Below are positions 33,422 through 51,888 of a stretch of DNA of 64,000 bases, in pieces. The notes under the pieces are model-generated. The model was not told the DNA's origin. It saw only the letters and a program-made list of their open reading frames with translations, and ran no database searches. Position 1 is the stretch's first letter, and each line of letters starts with the position of its first letter. Source of the DNA: Prevotella sp. E13-27 (GTDB lineage: Bacteria > Bacteroidota > Bacteroidia > Bacteroidales > Bacteroidaceae); NCBI RefSeq assembly GCF_023217965.1, contig NZ_JALPSC010000002.1, positions 124,001-188,000 of the forward strand, in the 5' to 3' direction. Position numbers and translations under genes: made by a program.

Positions 33422-33476
33422 CTTAAAAATCCCGTTCAGTCCGAAGACTTTCGCGGGATTCATAATGAAAGGAGGA

Positions 33477-33495
33477 GTGGTACCTCCAGGAATCC
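33477..33495 (-). other. Candidate prophage attachment site (tRNA 3' end-like)
   Basis: The plus strand reads GTGGTACCTCCAGGAATCC. Its complement, GGATTCCTGGAGGTACCAC, looks like the 3' end of a tRNA gene: the T-arm 3' strand followed by the acceptor strand and ACCA. The 5' part of a tRNA is missing, as expected at one end of an element integrated into the 3' end of a tRNA gene. It lies between the last host-like gene and the phage repressor. Confidence 0.5.
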
Positions 33496-33546: not shown

Positions 33547-33834
33547 CTACTTTTGACGTTCTAAGAGAATCTTTATAGTACGTTCTTTTTCTGCCAGGAG
33601 TTCCTTTAGATGAAGGATCTCCTTTTCTTTGTCCGTAACATCTACTGGTTCCCAAAAGATGGCCGGTGATACATCCAAGGCTTTTGCTATGGCCTCCAGG
33701 GTGGCTGTGTTGGTTGAACCAGTATTGATCAAATTGTGTATGCTTCCATCTTTCATATCTACCATGTCAGCAAGCTTGCGAATAGATATTTTTTTCTTTT
33801 CGCACAAATCCCTTATAATCTGAAAGTTAGCCAT
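33547..33834 (-). CDS. Phage repressor, XRE-type HTH
   Basis: A 95-residue protein with an N-terminal XRE helix-turn-helix (residues about 5-60: ISIRKLADMVDMKDGSIHNLI, then LEAIAKALDVSPAIFWEP) and a C-terminal coiled coil (KEKEILHLKELLAEKERTIKILLE) for dimerisation. It is transcribed away from the early operon across a palindromic operator, the cI/cro arrangement. It has no peptidase domain, so induction would not work by RecA-assisted self-cleavage. Confidence 0.82.
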   Translation of the reverse strand: MANFQIIRDLCEKKKISIRKLADMVDMKDGSIHNLINTGSTNTATLEAIAKALDVSPAIFWEPVDVTDKEKEILHLKELLAEKERTIKILLERQK

Positions 33835-33864: not shown

Positions 33865-33905
33865 TCGATTTATAATCGACATTATCGATTTTAATTGTAT
33901 ATTTG
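33865..33905 (+). promoter_or_regulatory. Early promoter with overlapping operator
   Basis: The palindrome TCGATT-TAT-AATCGA occupies 33865-33879 and a half copy TCGATT lies at 33885-33890. The -7 box TATATTTG is at 33898-33905, and the operator covers the -33 position, so a bound repressor would block it. The same palindrome recurs at 50374-50388 with the same spacing to a -7 box. Confidence 0.72.
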
Positions 33906-33945: not shown

Positions 33946-34173
33946 ATGAAGACAAAAAACATTAAAAAGCAGGAAAATTTAGAAAACAGCGCAAAACTGC
34001 GTAATTATTTCCGAAGCCTTCCTATAGAGGAATCACAGCGGAAAGCTCAGGAAATGACTGAGGCCTGCAAGGTTCCACGTTCTACTTTCAATAACTGGAG
34101 GGCTGGCGCTTGCAGTATTCCTGAATTAGCAAAGGATAAGATAAACGAAGTATCAGGGCGAATCATATTCTAA
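33946..34173 (+). CDS. Small HTH protein, Cro-like by position
   Basis: 75 residues. The central part (FRSLPIEESQRKAQEMTEACKVPRSTFNNWRAGACSIPELAKDKI) reads as a helix-turn-helix that tells when to stop or start, in the place a Cro-type regulator would take. The ATG at 33946 follows the early promoter by about 35 bp; the earlier in-frame ATG at 33895 overlaps the promoter and is unlikely. Confidence 0.65.
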   Translation: MKTKNIKKQENLENSAKLRNYFRSLPIEESQRKAQEMTEACKVPRSTFNNWRAGACSIPELAKDKINEVSGRIIF

Positions 34174-36915: not shown

Positions 36916-39831
36916 ATGGCACAACTTATAGAGGATCTGATGGCAGCCACTGACGGGGGCCTGCAGATAATTCTTGACTACTACCCGCAGGCGAAAGACT
37001 GTGCAGGGACTAATAAGAAATTCAAGCTGAGGAGTGACGAACGTACTGCCAGCGCGTCGATCCGCAAGAAAGGCGACCGGTGGAAGGTTACGGATTTTGG
37101 TGGCACAGGCCACGAAATGGACGCTATCGACATTTGTAAGTACGAGGAACATATAGAATACAATTCTGAGGCGATAGCGTTGCTCGCACAGCGATATGGA
37201 GTGGAATCCGAATTGAAGCCTGACATCAACAAGCCGGATTTCAAGACAAGACCAGCAAAACCGGATGAACAGGATGGTAAGACGTATCTGGAGATAGCCG
37301 AGAGTTTCACAGCTGATCAGCTGAGGGTGCTGGGGCCACTGGTGAAGGAAGAGCACTGCCAGGCGCTGCACTGGCATCCCGTCAAATTCATTCGCTACGT
37401 AAAGAACAGACAGGTGACAGAGATATGGGCAAACGATAAATACCCGATCTTTGCCCGTCAGTGTGCTTTCACGAAGGATGGCCAGGAAGACAGTTTCTAT
37501 AAGGTGTACCAGCCTTACTATATCGGAGAGAATGGTGACAAGTCCAGGCGCTTCACTTATACGCCTGCAGGCAAGAAGCCACAGCGATATACAAACGGCC
37601 TGGCTGAACTGAAAAGAGCACACCATATCTATAATGAAGATGAACGTAAGGCATGGGAAAGCACACATGGTGAGGGACAGCCATACAAGGAGAAAAAACT
37701 TAAGGAGGCCTTCATCTGCAGTGGAGAACGTGACGCACTCTGTATCCGGTCCCTGGGATATTGCCCGATATGGTTCAACTCAGAGACGTACCAGATATCT
37801 GTCGAGGAATATAAGGAGATTATGAAATATGTTGAGACCCTCTATAACATTCCTGATCTGGATGCAACTGGTAAAAAGAAGGGAAAGGAACTGGCACTAC
37901 GCTTCATTGACATACATACGATATGGCTACCGGAACGACTGTCAAATTTCAAGGATCATCGAGGCCATTCGCGTAAGGATTTCAGAGACTATATCGAGAT
38001 ATACAAGGATAAGGGAAATATCAGGGATCTTATGACACTGGCCATGCCTGCTAAGTTCTGGACTTCAAAGCCTAATAGCAAAGGAACTGGCTTTACACAT
38101 GATATCGATACTGAGTGCCTGCATTATTTCCTGGGATTGAATGGATTCTGTACCCTTCACGATGAGAACAGCGCAACAGTCAGGTATATAAGAGTGGAAG
38201 GTAATGTCGTGAGGTCTGTCACTCCAAAGGATATAGCCGAGTTCCTGCGTCGATGGGGTAAGGAGAGAGCGCTTCCAAGGGAAATCCGTAACCTGATTCT
38301 GAACAGTCAGCGCCTGAGCACATCGAGCCTGGACCGTCTGCAGGAGGTTGATCTGGACTTCACTGACTACACAGCGTCAAAGCAGATCTTTTTCTTCCCA
38401 AACAGTTGCCTGGAAATAACAGGATCCGGAATCATAGAGCATAAGGGGACCAGCAGCGCCCTGGCTAACTACGTATGGGAGGAAAACGTAATCAAGTATC
38501 CTTATAAGAAACTCGATGATTTCTTCAAGATTACATTGGGACGCGATGATGAAGGGAATATGACTTACGACATCAAACTGCATGATGTGGAACGCTCACC
38601 TTTCTTCTGTTTCCTGATCAACACTTCACGCGTTCACTGGAGAAAGGAACTGGAGGATAACCTGGAGTTCCTGGAGGTGAAAGACCGTGAGCAGTATAAG
38701 GCTGAACACAAGTTCGATATTGCAGGCCCCGGACTGGAGCAGCAGGAAATAAAGGAACAGATGCAGAACCTCATTAACAAGATCTTTGTAGTAGGGTATA
38801 TGATGCACAGGTATAAGTCACCATCACGCCCATGGGCACCTATGGCGATGGATAACAAGATCGGTGAGGACAACCAGTGTAACGGACGTTCGGGTAAGTC
38901 ATTCATGTTCAAGGCACTTTCATATTTCCGTAAGACAGTGAAACTGTCTGGGCGAAATGTGGAACTGACAAAGAATCCACACTGGCTCGATCAGGTAAAC
39001 AAGCATACCGATATGCTGATAGTGGACGATTGCGACAGATACCTGCAGCTAGGGCCGTTCTATGACATTATTACGTCGGATATGACCATCAACCCGAAGA
39101 ATAACCAGAGTTTCACAATTCCATTCGAGGATAGCCCCAAACTGGTATTCACAACGAATTATGTACCGGACAACTTCGATCCTTCAACGGAAGCCCGTCT
39201 GTTATATACCATCAACTCTGACTATTACCATGAGAAGACGGAGGATAATGACTACAAGGAATCCAGGAGCATACGCGATGATTTCGGATTCGACCTCTTT
39301 AGCAAGACCTATGGCGATAGCAGGTGGAACGCTGACATCAACTTCATCCTGCAGGCCACACAGTTCTACCTGTCACTTTGCGGCCAGTCCGTCAAGATAC
39401 AGCCGCCTATGGGTAATATCATCAAGCGTAAGTACTTGCAGGATATGGGCGGCCTGTTTGCAGAGTGGGCAGCGTCTTATTTCGCGCCAGAGAGCGATCA
39501 TCTGGACCGGTTCCTTATCCGTGAGAAGGTATTCGAAGATTACAAGCGCTTCACTGGAGCCAATAAAGCGACAGTCCAGAGCTTTACCAGGAGGCTTAAG
39601 AGCTTCGCACTGTCTGCAGAGAATATAGAGTACAATCCCAAAGAGTTCCAGAACAAGCAGGGACGTATCATCCGTAAACCGGAAGAGGATTCTCCAATGT
39701 ATCCGAAGACAAAATCCTTCGAAATGATTTACCTTCGCTATAATGGTAAAACAGCTAGTGAGAGCCAGGGGCCTGTTGAGGGCGATCTGGCCAGCCAGTC
39801 CGAAGAGTGGGAAGACGGTAGGCCGTTCTAG
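36916..39831 (+). CDS. Phage primase-helicase (TOPRIM-like plus SF3-like ATPase)
   Basis: 971 residues. The N-terminal third looks like a primase: a zinc-less CHC2-like start (RSDERTASASIRKKGDRWKVTDFGG), a TOPRIM-like glutamate block FICSGERDALCI near 266-277 and a DxDxxG block (DLDATGKKKG) near 313. The C-terminal half has Walker A GRSGKS near 657-662, Walker B DMLIVDDCD near 699-707 and sensor LVFTTNY, the pattern of superfamily 3 helicases. It is probably the main replication protein, unwinding and priming at the phage origin. No DNA polymerase is encoded nearby, so host polymerase III would be used. Confidence 0.82.
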   Translation: MAQLIEDLMAATDGGLQIILDYYPQAKDCAGTNKKFKLRSDERTASASIRKKGDRWKVTDFGGTGHEMDAIDICKYEEHIEYNSEAIALLAQRYGVESELKPDINKPDFKTRPAKPDEQDGKTYLEIAESFTADQLRVLGPLVKEEHCQALHWHPVKFIRYVKNRQVTEIWANDKYPIFARQCAFTKDGQEDSFYKVYQPYYIGENGDKSRRFTYTPAGKKPQRYTNGLAELKRAHHIYNEDERKAWESTHGEGQPYKEKKLKEAFICSGERDALCIRSLGYCPIWFNSETYQISVEEYKEIMKYVETLYNIPDLDATGKKKGKELALRFIDIHTIWLPERLSNFKDHRGHSRKDFRDYIEIYKDKGNIRDLMTLAMPAKFWTSKPNSKGTGFTHDIDTECLHYFLGLNGFCTLHDENSATVRYIRVEGNVVRSVTPKDIAEFLRRWGKERALPREIRNLILNSQRLSTSSLDRLQEVDLDFTDYTASKQIFFFPNSCLEITGSGIIEHKGTSSALANYVWEENVIKYPYKKLDDFFKITLGRDDEGNMTYDIKLHDVERSPFFCFLINTSRVHWRKELEDNLEFLEVKDREQYKAEHKFDIAGPGLEQQEIKEQMQNLINKIFVVGYMMHRYKSPSRPWAPMAMDNKIGEDNQCNGRSGKSFMFKALSYFRKTVKLSGRNVELTKNPHWLDQVNKHTDMLIVDDCDRYLQLGPFYDIITSDMTINPKNNQSFTIPFEDSPKLVFTTNYVPDNFDPSTEARLLYTINSDYYHEKTEDNDYKESRSIRDDFGFDLFSKTYGDSRWNADINFILQATQFYLSLCGQSVKIQPPMGNIIKRKYLQDMGGLFAEWAASYFAPESDHLDRFLIREKVFEDYKRFTGANKATVQSFTRRLKSFALSAENIEYNPKEFQNKQGRIIRKPEEDSPMYPKTKSFEMIYLRYNGKTASESQGPVEGDLASQSEEWEDGRPF

Positions 39832-47721: not shown

Positions 47722-48388
47722 GATAACGAAACCTTCACGCATAGACTTCGATAATCTGGACCTGAACCAGATCCAGAAAATATATACGACAGGATCGCTG
47801 CAGGATCTGACGGCTGCTGAACAGGTGTACTACAGTCTGATGGAGAAAGTACGCGGACTGAGAGCCAGGATGAGGATCAACGGAAGACTGGTGACAAAGG
47901 CCGGTATCATCCGTAACTTGAAAGAGGCCGACGGCCTCACTGACTACCAGGCACGCCGCGTCTATGCCGATGCCGTGAATTTCTTCTATGACAACGAGGA
48001 GGTAAGGCCGAAGGCATGGGCGAACCTGTATGCCGAGAAATGCGAGAACTTTGGTAACATGCTTTTCTCCATGGGAAAGCCGAAAGAGGCCCTGAGATAC
48101 CTGAAAATGGCCGCTGAACTGAGGGGATGCTTCCGCGATCAGGAGAACGAGATACCGAAGGAACTGCTTGACCAGACACCGACGGTCATTTACACTACTT
48201 CTGCGAAAGACCTGGGATCGCCTGACACCGACCGTAAGCGCGTGGAGGAGTTTATCGACAGCATACCTGAGATACCGGTGATCGTCAAGGAAAATGTGAA
48301 GGAAGATGCCCGTATCAACGGCTTCAACCTTAAGAAGCGAATGTTATACGACAAATCTGAGTTTACGGATGCTGAGGAAGTTGAATGA
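47714..48388 (+). CDS. Probable small terminase subunit
   Basis: 224 residues with KAGIIRNLKEADGLTDYQARRVYADAVNFF (helix-turn-helix-like) and a helical repeat-like centre (ALRYLKMAAELRGCF). It sits directly before the large terminase and overlaps it by 20 bp, the normal place for the DNA-recognition subunit. Family assignment rests mainly on context. Confidence 0.65.
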   Translation: MNEITKPSRIDFDNLDLNQIQKIYTTGSLQDLTAAEQVYYSLMEKVRGLRARMRINGRLVTKAGIIRNLKEADGLTDYQARRVYADAVNFFYDNEEVRPKAWANLYAEKCENFGNMLFSMGKPKEALRYLKMAAELRGCFRDQENEIPKELLDQTPTVIYTTSAKDLGSPDTDRKRVEEFIDSIPEIPVIVKENVKEDARINGFNLKKRMLYDKSEFTDAEEVE

Positions 48389-50066
48389 CACGCTGAGCGA
48401 CGTATCTGTAAGGTATGGCCATATTCTACAGGTGATATGTGACTGGGTGGATGCTACCGTCATGGTGATGGTGTGCGGACGCGGTACGGCAAAATCTACC
48501 GTCATTCAGGCCCGTAGGATATTCCGCTGTGTGATGGATATGCCTGGCGCTCCACTGGCTATAGTGGCAAATACATATTCCAACCTGGATAACAACATCA
48601 TGCCTGCAGTCTATAAGGGCTGGCAGCTCATGGGATGGATAGAGGGTGTTCACTACATCAAGGGAAAACGACCGGCTGAGTCATGGAGACGGCGCTGTTC
48701 TATCATCGTAGATGAATATGAGCACGTCATATCGTTCTGGAACGGATCGGTGCTGTTCCTGGGATCGCTCGACAATCCTTCACTGCTGGCTGGTAAGTCG
48801 GTGTGTCACCTGTTCTTTGATGAAGCGAAATACGCAAAGGAGGCCAAGGCTAACAGGGCACTGCCTATCCTTCGAGGGGATGCTATCACCTACGGTCATA
48901 GCCACCTGTTCCTGGGGCTGACCATAACAACGGATATGCCGGATATCGACGAGAACGAAGACGACTGGTATTTCCGCTACTTTGCTGAAATGGATCCTGA
49001 CCTGATAGAGTATATCGTGATGGCCGCCAGTATCCGAAACGACATACTGATTAAGCGGGAAAAGGAAAACAGGAGACAGAAGCCTAGTCCTAGGAAGATC
49101 AGAAGTCTGGAGAGACAGCTGGAATACTATGACCGTGGACTGCATAAGATGCGTAAGGGTGCTACCTTTGCCATCAACACATCGAGCCTGATCAACATCG
49201 ACATACTGACACCTGAGTATATCGAGCGACTGTATAACGGTACGTTGGAACTTCATGAGTTCCTAAAGAGCGTGTTCGGTATGCGGCCCGGACTGAGGCG
49301 TGACCTGCGCTTCTATGTGGCATTCTCTGAGCAGCATAAGTATGTAGGCACTCTGTCCGGACTGCCTGCATTCTCCAGCAGGGAGCTGATATACCTGGAT
49401 CATAATAAACTGATCGAGGCCGGTATGGACTTCGGTAACATGCTGTCAATGGTGATAGGACAGGAAGACGGTACTAAATACAGGATACACAAGAACTTCC
49501 ATGAGTTGCCGCCTGGATGGATGCGCGAGCTGGCCGACCAGTTCCTGGCATTCTTCGAGCAGCATCAGGCAAAGGAACTGAACCTGTACTACGACCGTGC
49601 AGGTAACAACTACCAGAAGCAGGGACAGGACCAGGCCACTCAGATCAAGTATGCAATAGAACATGATGCAGCAGGAAGACGGACGGGATGGACGGTGAAC
49701 CTGATGAGCCGTAAGCAGGCTACCATCAAGCAGAATGCAGAGTATAACTTCATGCAGGAGTTCATGGCCGGTAACGTGCCAGGACTTCCGGAACTGGCCA
49801 TCGATGAGGTGAACTGCAAGGAACTGGTATCCTCTATCGAGAAGGCAAAGGCTGACATACGATATACAGGCAGTGTGAAGGTGGTGCATAAGGTTAAGAA
49901 GACAGAGAAGCTGGCACCGAAGAAACTGCCTATGCTGTCAACGAACTACAGTGATGCCTTCAAGTACCTGGCCATGCGCCGCGACTGGGTGAGACTGGTG
50001 CAGCGCAACAGCCGCAGTGTGGCTGACAGTGCAGTGGAGCAGTTCATGGAGGATAGGAAGAAGTAA
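48369..50066 (+). CDS. Phage terminase large subunit
   Basis: 565 residues from ATG 48369. The ATPase has Walker A CGRGTAKST at 36-44 and Walker B HLFFDEAK near 147-154. The nuclease has the three acidic sites of the RNase H-like fold: EAGMDFGN, LYYDRAGNN and NYSDAFKYLAMR. It packages DNA into the prohead. The in-frame ATG at 48306 would add 21 residues inside the upstream gene and is less likely. Confidence 0.92.
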   Translation: MLRKLNDTLSDVSVRYGHILQVICDWVDATVMVMVCGRGTAKSTVIQARRIFRCVMDMPGAPLAIVANTYSNLDNNIMPAVYKGWQLMGWIEGVHYIKGKRPAESWRRRCSIIVDEYEHVISFWNGSVLFLGSLDNPSLLAGKSVCHLFFDEAKYAKEAKANRALPILRGDAITYGHSHLFLGLTITTDMPDIDENEDDWYFRYFAEMDPDLIEYIVMAASIRNDILIKREKENRRQKPSPRKIRSLERQLEYYDRGLHKMRKGATFAINTSSLINIDILTPEYIERLYNGTLELHEFLKSVFGMRPGLRRDLRFYVAFSEQHKYVGTLSGLPAFSSRELIYLDHNKLIEAGMDFGNMLSMVIGQEDGTKYRIHKNFHELPPGWMRELADQFLAFFEQHQAKELNLYYDRAGNNYQKQGQDQATQIKYAIEHDAAGRRTGWTVNLMSRKQATIKQNAEYNFMQEFMAGNVPGLPELAIDEVNCKELVSSIEKAKADIRYTGSVKVVHKVKKTEKLAPKKLPMLSTNYSDAFKYLAMRRDWVRLVQRNSRSVADSAVEQFMEDRKK

Positions 50067-50090
50067 CCACATAATATGTCAATGATCGGG

Positions 50091-50122
50091 AGCGTCTGGG
50101 CCGTGAGGTTCGGGCGCTTTTT
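50091..50122 (+). terminator. Terminator after the terminase gene
   Basis: Stem AGCGTCTG/CGGGCGCT with two G-U pairs, then TTTTTCGTG. From here to 50373 I see no convincing gene. Confidence 0.7.
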
Positions 50123-50373
50123 CGTGTGTCACGGAATCGGCAAAGTTACCGGCTGAATGTCATATTTCACCTTCCTGACCAACGGTAATGACCACACGAG
50201 TTCTGGGCGGCCCGACCTGCAGAGCGTGTCACGATGGCGCTTGCTTGTGTCTCTGTAACACAAAATGCTGGAAATCAGGTGTTTTTCTTTCGGATGCTCA
50301 AAATTTTGGCTTCAAAAGTGCAAGTTTTAGGCTGTTTTTTGCCGTTTTTCGCAAAATTACCATACAAAAAGTA

Positions 50374-50413
50374 TCGATTTTAAATCGATATTCTGCTATT
50401 TTATGTACCTTTG
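50374..50413 (+). promoter_or_regulatory. Second phage operator plus promoter
   Basis: TCGATT-TTA-AATCGA at 50374-50388 lies inside a longer palindrome, 50372-50390. TACCTTTG follows at 50406-50413. Operator centre to -7 box is 25 bp, against 26 bp at the early promoter, and TATCGATTTTAA is found at both loci (33883 and 50372). Confidence 0.68.
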
Positions 50414-50418
50414 CACCT

Positions 50419-50505
50419 GCATCTTATTGCGTTCAGCATGAAGCCCTGGGAATACAAGCCTCGCCCTGAATCCTCAATCTGTAACTGGATTGGGGATTCT
50501 TGTTA
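50419..50505 (+). ncRNA. Short repressor-controlled transcript (small RNA or 22-residue peptide)
   Basis: Downstream of the operator/promoter a short unit ends in hairpin GAATCCTCAATC/GATTGGGGATTC (50468-50499, one G-U pair) with a short TTCTTGTT tail. Inside is a frame from ATG 50438 to TAA 50504 (starts MKPWEYKPRPESS, ends WIGDSC). The stem overlaps the frame, so either an RNA or a peptide could be the product. No similarity recognised. Confidence 0.45.
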
Positions 50506-50509
50506 AATG

Positions 50510-50598
50510 ATATTAATATTAATAACGTTTTTACCTAAATGTTTGGTGTTTGATATTAATTTTCGTATCTTTGCATCGTAATTAGTTTTCATATTAAT
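50510..50598 (+). promoter_or_regulatory. hicAB promoter with ATATTAAT boxes
   Basis: TTTG 50542-50545 and TATCTTTG 50566-50573, 24 bp start to start. ATATTAAT occurs four times around it: 50510, 50516 (overlapping), 50553 and 50591. Such boxes fit autoregulation by the HTH-carrying antitoxin. Confidence 0.68.
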
Positions 50599-50599
50599 A

Positions 50600-50788
50600 A
50601 TGAAATACAATGAGTTAGAAAAGAAAATTAAAAAGGCCGGATGCTTCGACACAGGTAAACAGATGAGCGGCCACCCCATCTGGCACAGCCCGAAGACAGG
50701 CATGGACTTCAAGATGAGCAATCATGGAAGTGAGGAAGTGGCAACAGGAACACTAAACGCAATCCTAAAGGCAGCGGGTCTGAAATAA
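50600..50788 (+). CDS. hicA: HicA-type toxin (mRNA interferase)
   Basis: 62 residues with the HicA dsRBD-like fold: N-terminal helix, SGHPIWHSPKTGMDFKM with the catalytic-type His, and C-terminal GTLNAILKAAGL. HicA cleaves mRNA when not bound by HicB. Toxin-first order is the usual one for hicAB. Confidence 0.8.
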   Translation: MKYNELEKKIKKAGCFDTGKQMSGHPIWHSPKTGMDFKMSNHGSEEVATGTLNAILKAAGLK

Positions 50789-50855
50789 CACCCGCCACCT
50801 TTCCCCTTATAATAATTGTCATAATAGTATCAGACTTAGAAAGCAGTATCAAGTT

Positions 50856-51260
50856 ATGAAGAAAGTGAAGGCTATCATCGAGCGTGCCGGCGATGGTAAT
50901 TACAGTGTGTATATGGATGCTGATAATATCAGCTATCTCATAACCGGCACAGGAACAACAGCAGCAGAAGCCATAGCATCCTTCAAGGATAATTATGAGG
51001 ACATGAAACGCTACTACGCTGAGGAGGGTAAGGAGTTCGAGGAATTGGACTTCGATTACCAATACGACATGGCTTCATTCCTCTCTTATTTTTCGAAGGC
51101 ATTCTCTTTGGCAGGTCTTTCAAGAATCACCGGTATCAATCAGGGACAGTTAAGTCACTATGTTACCGGCCATCGTGTACCGTCTGCCAGGACAAAGGAG
51201 AAAATCCAAAAGTCGATACATTCCTTTGCCTCTGATTTAAGTCAGGTGAGTTTTGTGTAA
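50856..51260 (+). CDS. hicB: HicB-type antitoxin with HTH
   Basis: 134 residues. The HicB partial RNase H fold (KAIIERAGDGNYSVYMDADN, TAAEAIASFKDNYEDM) covers the first half and an XRE-type HTH the second (AGLSRITGINQGQLSHYVTGHR). It should neutralise HicA and repress the pair. Own terminator follows, so the pair forms a separate cargo unit in the late region. Confidence 0.82.
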   Translation: MKKVKAIIERAGDGNYSVYMDADNISYLITGTGTTAAEAIASFKDNYEDMKRYYAEEGKEFEELDFDYQYDMASFLSYFSKAFSLAGLSRITGINQGQLSHYVTGHRVPSARTKEKIQKSIHSFASDLSQVSFV

Positions 51261-51281
51261 GTGAAGCACAAATAATATGGG

Positions 51282-51310
51282 GCGGGATCTGTAAAAGGAT
51301 CCCGCTTTTT
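51282..51310 (+). terminator. Terminator of hicAB
   Basis: Stem GCGGGATC/GATCCCGC, loop TGTAAAAG, then TTTTT. Confidence 0.9.
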
Positions 51311-51379
51311 CTTGTTTACAAAGTTAAGAAAGATATTCGTAGATTTAATTTTCGTTATTAAATTTAATTAACTTTTTTT

Positions 51380-51411
51380 TTTGTTCGTTCACTTTATTTG
51401 CCGTACCTTTG
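51380..51411 (+). promoter_or_regulatory. Promoter with long leader before the 51610 gene
   Basis: TTTG 51380-51383 and TACCTTTG 51404-51411, 24 bp start to start. The leader of nearly 200 nt has GTTACAAA at 51418 and 51598 and its inverse TTTGTAAC at 51553. Confidence 0.65.
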
Positions 51412-51609
51412 CCGACGGTTACAAACGAACAAGAGTTCCGTAGGGGCTACGTTACAGCCTGGCCGACCCGCTGGGTTATTTTTGTGGAAAACAAGCTGTA
51501 CAGTATAACGGCTGTGTCTCGTAAAGATAAATGTCCTATACGGAAATTGTTCTTTGTAACCAACGGGATGCAGCCGTTTCTGCATGAATATAAAGAGGTT
51601 ACAAAGAAC

Positions 51610-51888
51610 ATGGAAGCAGTACAACTGAGAGCAGGCGCAACAACGCGCACACTGGAGGCCATCACAGCATGGCTGCAGGGAGAGAGCAGCACCGCCAGGA
51701 CACTGATGGGCGGTGAGAGTGTTTCACGTATGCAGGTGATTCGCCTTTACCTGACATTCATCTTTATCATCATGGCAGCAGCGGCAGCCGACGTGCTGGC
51801 ACTGTGCGGCATGTTCGTGGCACTGGCCGCATGGATGGGAAAGGCATTCGTGGAGAATACACCGGAGGGAAAGGAGGTGAGGAAATGA
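51610..51888 (+). CDS. Small phage membrane protein
   Basis: 92 residues from ATG 51610 with a long hydrophobic region (VIRLYLTFIFIIMAAAAADV and following, two likely helices). Upstream in-frame ATG 51568 is an alternative, and the frame stays open to 51409. Function unknown; could be holin-like or a virion accessory. Confidence 0.5.
   Translation: MEAVQLRAGATTRTLEAITAWLQGESSTARTLMGGESVSRMQVIRLYLTFIFIIMAAAAADVLALCGMFVALAAWMGKAFVENTPEGKEVRK

Follow-up and report, generated by a model that had tools for sequence, protein, structure and literature searches.

OOP RNA of lambda, c4 RNA of P1 and Sar RNA of P22 are short, terminated RNAs by which phages regulate lysogeny through antisense pairing. 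Temperate phages also carry cargo (morons), that is variable ORFs between fixed genes which have their own promoter and terminator and are usually expressed in the lysogen; hicAB is a usual phage cargo, and TAnnTTTG boxes are the promoter boxes of Bacteroidota. For the Qin prophage of E. coli, PMC10448788 describes DicA as controlling the dicBF operon with its small RNA DicF, and PMC10367356 places HicAB on P. gingivalis phages. The locus analysed here would resemble DicA/dicBF, as PMC10448788 presents it, in that a short repressor without a cleavage site controls, beyond the immunity region, a promoter yielding a small noncoding RNA. In the same account DicF is cut from a polycistronic mRNA beside the immunity region, whereas the RNA proposed here would be made 16.5 kb away as a unit by itself, from a separate promoter to a separate end. 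Since prophage repressors controlling small RNAs are already described (DicA/DicF, PMC10448788), the kind of system is known unless the antisense reading weighed below is true. The locus also differs from a moron, as its promoter seems to bear an immunity operator and its slot is empty. Literature searches returned nothing on this slot or the short RNA.

The window, by which we mean the whole stretch of 64,000 nucleotides analysed (G000:C2:124001-188000), belongs to a genome of which 3,960,292 bases (3.96 Mb) were searched. It holds the left end, at 33439 in a partial tRNA-Phe copy, of a prophage of about 47 kb at tRNA-Phe, and the right end lies beyond the window beside the intact tRNA-Phe gene (matching att repeat L062:16916-17027, tRNA-Phe itself L062:16954-17027). 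A candidate tyrosine-integrase ORF (L062:15639-16784) is identified by its position, at which an integrase is annotated in Bacteroides phage BT-TP2. A Mu-like phage was considered and ruled out by this ORF together with the att repeats at tRNA-Phe. The features of the early region and the terminase are as follows.

33439..33494, no strand: attL, partial copy of the tRNA-Phe end (direct repeat search and sequence comparison)
33547..33834, minus strand: prophage repressor, 95 aa, HTH_26/HTH_3 (Pfam; PHROGs transcriptional repressor/regulator families)
33865..33879, no strand: early operator TCGATTTATAATCGA, exact TCGATT-N3-AATCGA palindrome
33883..33894, plus strand: second half-site of the early promoter, TATCGATTTTAA (from sequence; CGATTTTAATTG is kept at the same place in contig L075)
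33898..33906, plus strand: -7 box of the early promoter, TATATTTGC (from sequence)
33946..34173, plus strand: first early ORF, 75 aa from this ATG, possibly Cro-like (the BT-TP2 ORF at the same place is annotated helix-turn-helix)
48306..50066, plus strand: large terminase subunit, TerL (motifs GRGTAKST and FDEAKY in the TerL alignment; similarity to the BT-TP2 terminase)

The repressor lies on the minus strand facing the early genes, and Pfam listed no peptidase domain for it and no match for the first early ORF. The late genes finish with a tape measure ORF. The nearest named phage is BT-TP2 (PQ571279), whose annotated terminase is 68.7% identical to our TerL and whose repressor is 51% identical over 67 residues. 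It shares the gene order around terL, the integrase, the short HTH repressor and the early region, but its slot behind the terminase carries an ORF of 128-129 aa, its early-operator position has a different 6-3-6 palindrome (GTGAATTTTATTCAC), and no copy of that operator is found at its slot promoter. A metagenome TerL (P0001) is 95% identical to that of the window; similar DNA was found in none of 50,697 phage records. It may be noted that an early ORF of 971 aa (36916-39831), which has a counterpart in the same position in BT-TP2, matches one PHROG of unknown function and nothing in Pfam or NCBIfam.

The early operator was compared with that of G398, a near relative represented by an early-region contig (L075) and a slot contig (L002). 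All 15 bp are identical at the same place in L075, and as the repressor there is 79% identical to ours, we regard the early site as a sound operator. On scanning viral contigs for the early palindrome plus 3 bases, only the G398 phage matched. The -7 box of this promoter is of the TAnnTTTG type.

An earlier note on this DNA had proposed that a second copy of the operator controls a tiny transcript between terminase and hicAB. The features concerned are these.

50372..50390, no strand: second operator, perfect 9+1+9 palindrome TATCGATTT-T-AAATCGATA, covering the -33 region of the slot promoter
50406..50414, plus strand: -7 box of the slot promoter, TACCTTTGC, identical in L002 and L003

The inner palindrome at 50374-50388 (TCGATTTTAAATCGA) is an exact TCGATT-N3-AATCGA. 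This pattern occurs exactly twice in the 3,960,292-base genome, in both cases over the -33 region of a promoter of this prophage with a TAnnTTTG box, so that the early and distant sites share all 12 specified bases and the second copy is the sole exact partner of the first in 3.96 Mb. Under an order-1 Markov model of the prophage composition, 0.003 exact copies are expected in 47 kb and 0.25 in 3.96 Mb, and the expectation falls to 7e-6 for a copy starting 28-38 bp before one of the 10 plus-strand TAnnTTTGC boxes of the prophage. The presence of a second operator-like site at the equivalent place of a distant promoter is thus, by the genome count and this expectation, far beyond chance. With up to 2 mismatches allowed the window still has only these two sites against 2.8 expected by chance, which means that there is no halo of weak sites. 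The distances from palindrome centre to -7 box, which the earlier note gave as 25 and 26 bp, were measured as 25 bp here (50381 to 50406) and 26 bp at the early promoter (33872 to 33898). The 12-nt string TATCGATTTTAA that it had reported as shared is exact at both promoters (50372-50383 and 33883-33894) but out of register: at 50372 it lies inside the palindrome, and at 33883 it forms a half-site of its own, near the -7 box and outside the palindrome. A stretch of 12 nt in common between the early and slot promoters of the window was equalled in length in 1 of 300 shuffles, and the 10 nt of G398 in 6 of 300. Across 200 same-genus genomes, the operator-plus-promoter pattern was found in one, the window's own. 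We consider the operator copy as such likely to be real.

The reading we lean to, with a little better than even confidence, is that 50372-50390 is a second operator of the 95-aa repressor, placed at the promoter of an empty cargo slot that would yield a short noncoding RNA. In the lysogen, repressor sitting on the palindrome over the -33 region would keep the slot promoter shut. Upon loss of repression, transcription would begin near 50419 and run to a 12-bp hairpin, yielding a noncoding RNA of about 85 nt; the slot would have no protein gene in this phage, with hicAB placed behind the hairpin under its own promoter. We infer the binding, the repression and the start and end of the transcript at the slot promoter. 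If the repressor does control the unit, immunity in this group of Bacteroidales phages, which is common but unstudied, involves more than the early promoter, and the small RNA produced once repression is lost would offer a handle on induction in gut bacteria.

The closest relatives with TerL context are L002 and L003, whose TerL is in each case 88% identical to that of the window and 88% identical to the other. Both share the slot promoter and its -7 box with the window. At the distant site L003 has TCGATTTTAAATCGT, with one mismatch to the palindrome, and L002 has TCGATTTTAATATGA, with three mismatches, where only the left half remains. Position by position, the majority of the window, L002 and L003 gives the window's own palindrome, and as the three phages are equidistant, the distant palindrome may be ancestral with loss in L002. 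We extended the comparison to a census of post-terminase stretches, taken from loci with a TerL match at least 55% identical and reaching residue 560, from which L110, L111, L142, L001 and L032 were dropped as copies. In this redundant set of 47 stretches (two of them too short to test; L070, a copy of L003, is counted and other near-copies remain), only L003 and L070 showed the palindrome when one missing outer base was allowed. The absence of the palindrome from the same place in related phages, which the earlier note had named as evidence against its claim, therefore holds in part: L003 keeps the site with one mismatch, L002 has its left half, and none was seen in the other post-terminase stretches. 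As for phages that keep the repressor, G398 with its 79% identical protein has the left half only, and the one-mismatch site of L003 is on a contig without a repressor gene. The phage of L002 has a further near-operator at L002:8339-8353 (TCGATTATAAATAGA, one mismatch), upstream of its terL.

Since L002 belongs to a phage with the same early operator and yet has no right half at the distant site, the control is either non-essential or absent there. A rival explanation is that the palindrome is unused by the repressor, in which case TCGATTTT would be a promoter element of the genus, kept in L002 and L003, with a coincidental right half. The unit would then be transcribed constitutively as a short RNA or be what remains of a cargo gene since lost. 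This explanation gains from the finding that TCGATTTT with GTACCTTTGCA behind it, at the same spacing, occurs in 21 of 239 same-genus genomes and in none for a reversed-pattern control, the spacer being 21-27 bp in 21 of 25 cases among the matches listed. The unrelated viral contigs L168, L169 and L171 also show the spaced pair (6 of the 8 viral contigs considered beside the left half are without TerL, repressor and noncoding element). The left half may thus have been kept just as a promoter element. Also, more distant relatives have no copy, whether in the post-terminase stretches or on pairing early with slot promoters. In 11 such early/slot pairs, the shared stretch exceeds that of the shuffles in the window (12 nt) and in G398/L002 (10 nt) only; the other 9, which are partly redundant and include two that join contigs of one genome on the assumption of a one-phage origin, have only 6-8 nt in common. 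Some mismatched early/slot pairs have 11 nt in common by chance, which makes the argument from the 12-mer weaker. On the other hand, an unused palindrome does not account well for a full palindrome that is present just twice in the genome, each time at the corresponding place of a promoter of this prophage, and is near-perfect in L003. We consider disuse of the palindrome possible but doubtful, and retain the second operator as our working interpretation.

The unit downstream of the slot promoter comprises the following features.

50419..50499, plus strand: short unit, putative transcript of about 81-90 nt (placed from the -7 box and the hairpin)
50468..50499, plus strand: hairpin closing the unit (inverted-repeat analysis and fold)
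50438..50506, plus strand: 22-codon frame, probably not a gene (ATG 50438 to TAA 50506)

The arms of the hairpin (50468-50479 and 50488-50499) are 92% complementary with 8 nt of loop distance. The U-tract after it is poor (UUGUU), which explains why simple terminator scans did not list this hairpin, and the fold of the unit including its leader was not better than that of shuffles (z -1.3). Of the claimed unit of about 85 nt with a hairpin end, the hairpin is real and short units recur in L002 and L003, but the U-tract and the negative terminator scan weaken its end as a terminator. No recognisable sequence is common to the window's unit and those of L002 and L003, and Rfam gave no match at the unit. 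Within 50050-51760 the sole Rfam match was sub-threshold, to L20_leader (51189-51319, E 0.2, under the gathering score). At the same place L002 and L003 likewise have a short unit with a promoter and an end and no conserved frame. As for the 22-codon frame, it is present as reported, an open ATG frame within the unit, and the earlier note had offered a peptide (antirepressor or signal) as one possible product. A peptide encoded by it is, however, very improbable: the L002 unit has no ATG frame at all, that of L003 has no frame of at least 6 codons starting with ATG, GTG or TTG, 32 of the 69 nt of the frame fall within the hairpin, and the length is too short for a meaningful homologue search. 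The search of relatives for site and frame thus recovered the site (near-perfect in L003, half in L002) and a counterpart of the frame in neither, so the peptide, being unlikely, was rejected as the main reading.

The same comparison bears on whether the unit is a functional regulatory RNA, which in the L003 lineage would be antisense to the repressor mRNA, covering its start codon, and in other lineages would keep the control but have other targets. In such a double-negative switch the repressor would shut off its own antagonist, and the repressor gene of the L003 phage would carry the complement of the pairing stretch GATCTGAAAGTTAGCTA. The L003 unit (L003:9950-10073) does pair with the repressor mRNA of its relatives (L075 and the window), across the start codon and through 17 contiguous pairs, G-U allowed, at -28.3 kcal/mol, a value equalled by 0 of 1000 shuffles in each case. 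A search of both strands of 14.7 kb and 14.9 kb gave no stronger contiguous helix, and with RNAduplex the match was reached by 0 of 60 and 1 of 60 shuffles. The L002 unit, which shares TAGGTATTAGA and TCTGAAAG with L003 (the two occur together in no other viral contig), keeps 10 of the 17 pairs. Yet against its own repressor the match of L002 falls short of significance (equalled by 80 of 1000 shuffles, RNAduplex 3 of 60), and it is outside its 8 best helices. The window's unit has no such match either, as 629 of 1000 shuffles and, with RNAduplex, 25 of 60 were as good, and it was rejected as an antisense RNA to its own repressor. Comparison with L002 and L003 and the test on repressor mRNA gave neither a conserved RNA sequence nor a target for the window's unit. 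The L003 match was found after the fact and is to relatives only, so the antisense lead rests on one phage without its own repressor in the contig. In comparison with OOP, c4 and Sar, the unit is likewise short and terminated, but the window's version has no supported target, and only that of L003 matches a repressor start. A functional regulatory RNA is in our estimate improbable, and we give even less weight to the fuller version in which the slot RNA is a repressor antagonist, antisense over the repressor start codon and made under the distant operator, with the window phage keeping the same control over a diverged RNA.

The surroundings of the unit point to a cargo slot behind the terminase, for which the remaining features are listed here.

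50088..50124, plus strand: strong terminator hairpin closing the terminase transcript (fold of 50080-50130, -24.2 kcal/mol, z -4.1; T run after it)
50160..50233, plus strand: conserved noncoding element behind terL, TCATATTTCACC ... GGTAAT ... TCTGGGCGG ... CTGCAGAGCGTGTC; also given, over 50160-50309, as TCAYATTTCACC..GGTAAT..TCTGAGCGG..CAAAATTTTG
50505..50530, no strand: inverted repeat before hicA, candidate HicB operator (GATATTA common with the hicA promoter repeat of L112)
50600..50788, plus strand: hicA toxin gene (Pfam HicA_toxin, 34.3 bits, cut-off 27), own -7 box 50566-50574
50856..51260, plus strand: hicB-type partner (similar to the 138-aa ORF behind hicA of L112)

The order behind TerL is a strong terminator, the conserved element, a promoter and then variable content. 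A direct copy of the noncoding element is found in 42 of the 47 testable post-terL stretches and an inverted motif in 3 more (L033, L114 and L137); its occurrence in either orientation makes a DNA site, perhaps for packaging or replication, more likely than an RNA. Behind the same promoter position the relatives carry ORFs of different kinds, about 60 to 300 aa long, so that with terL upstream the content is variable, the flanks are fixed and the promoter is its own. 'Empty' terminated units occupy the slot in five phages. In L002, L003, L121 and L146 a hairpin with a T run lies 86-128 nt behind the -7 box; L025 may have another such unit. The supposed micro-unit between terminase and hicAB is there as a short terminated unit, but an empty cargo slot describes it better, with hicAB inserted behind the hairpin as a separate insert with its own promoter. 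For this phage we regard it chiefly as a slot that has no cargo but does have a functioning promoter.

As hicAB lies directly downstream, the palindrome could instead belong to HicB and control hicAB, which we hold to be highly unlikely and have rejected. The hicA gene has its own -7 box and GATATTA-type repeats as before hicA in L112, where the promoter repeat is TGATATTA-AAAA-TAATATCA. In L003, moreover, the unit with the near-palindrome is followed by the late promoter and there is no hicAB. Pfam gave no match for the hicB-type ORF of the window. The slots of L112 and L113 hold a hicA-like ORF of 62 aa and a hicB-like ORF; there the promoter at the slot position, which bears a different palindrome, serves hicA, and in the window hicA has its own promoter past the empty unit. 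Apart from the operator, the comparison defines features that are open to direct testing: the cargo slot behind terL, the noncoding element conserved next to it, and a structured leader of the late operon.

The late leader lies about 1 kb downstream of the unit and has counterparts at L002:12283-12520, L003:10160-10400, L124:7333-7570 and others.

51404..51613, plus strand: promoter following the slot, and late-operon leader RNA containing segment A (51417-51432), segment B (51547-51561) and segment C (51597-51613)

The promoter after the slot has a T run of at least 9 (TTAACTTTTTTTTTTGTTC in the window). Segment B is complementary both to A, at the 5′ end of the RNA, and to C, at the first start codon (51610). 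On comparing 14 selected leaders, A-B complementarity of at least 8 nt was found in 14 of 14 and A equals C in 13 of 14, as against 24% and 23% in swapped pairs. Helices A-B and D-D′ cross, with 84.8% of the cells paired in 13 sequences. In the same 13 sequences both partners had changed in 9 of the 22 pairs, compared to 4.0 in shuffles (0 of 500 as high) and 1-5 in slid versions, a count that leans toward structure because the pair columns were picked on the same alignment. Rfam holds no family that matches this leader. With A-B, B-C and the crossing helix co-varying between phages, it resembles a pseudoknotted RNA switch or antitermination element that has so far gone unrecognised.
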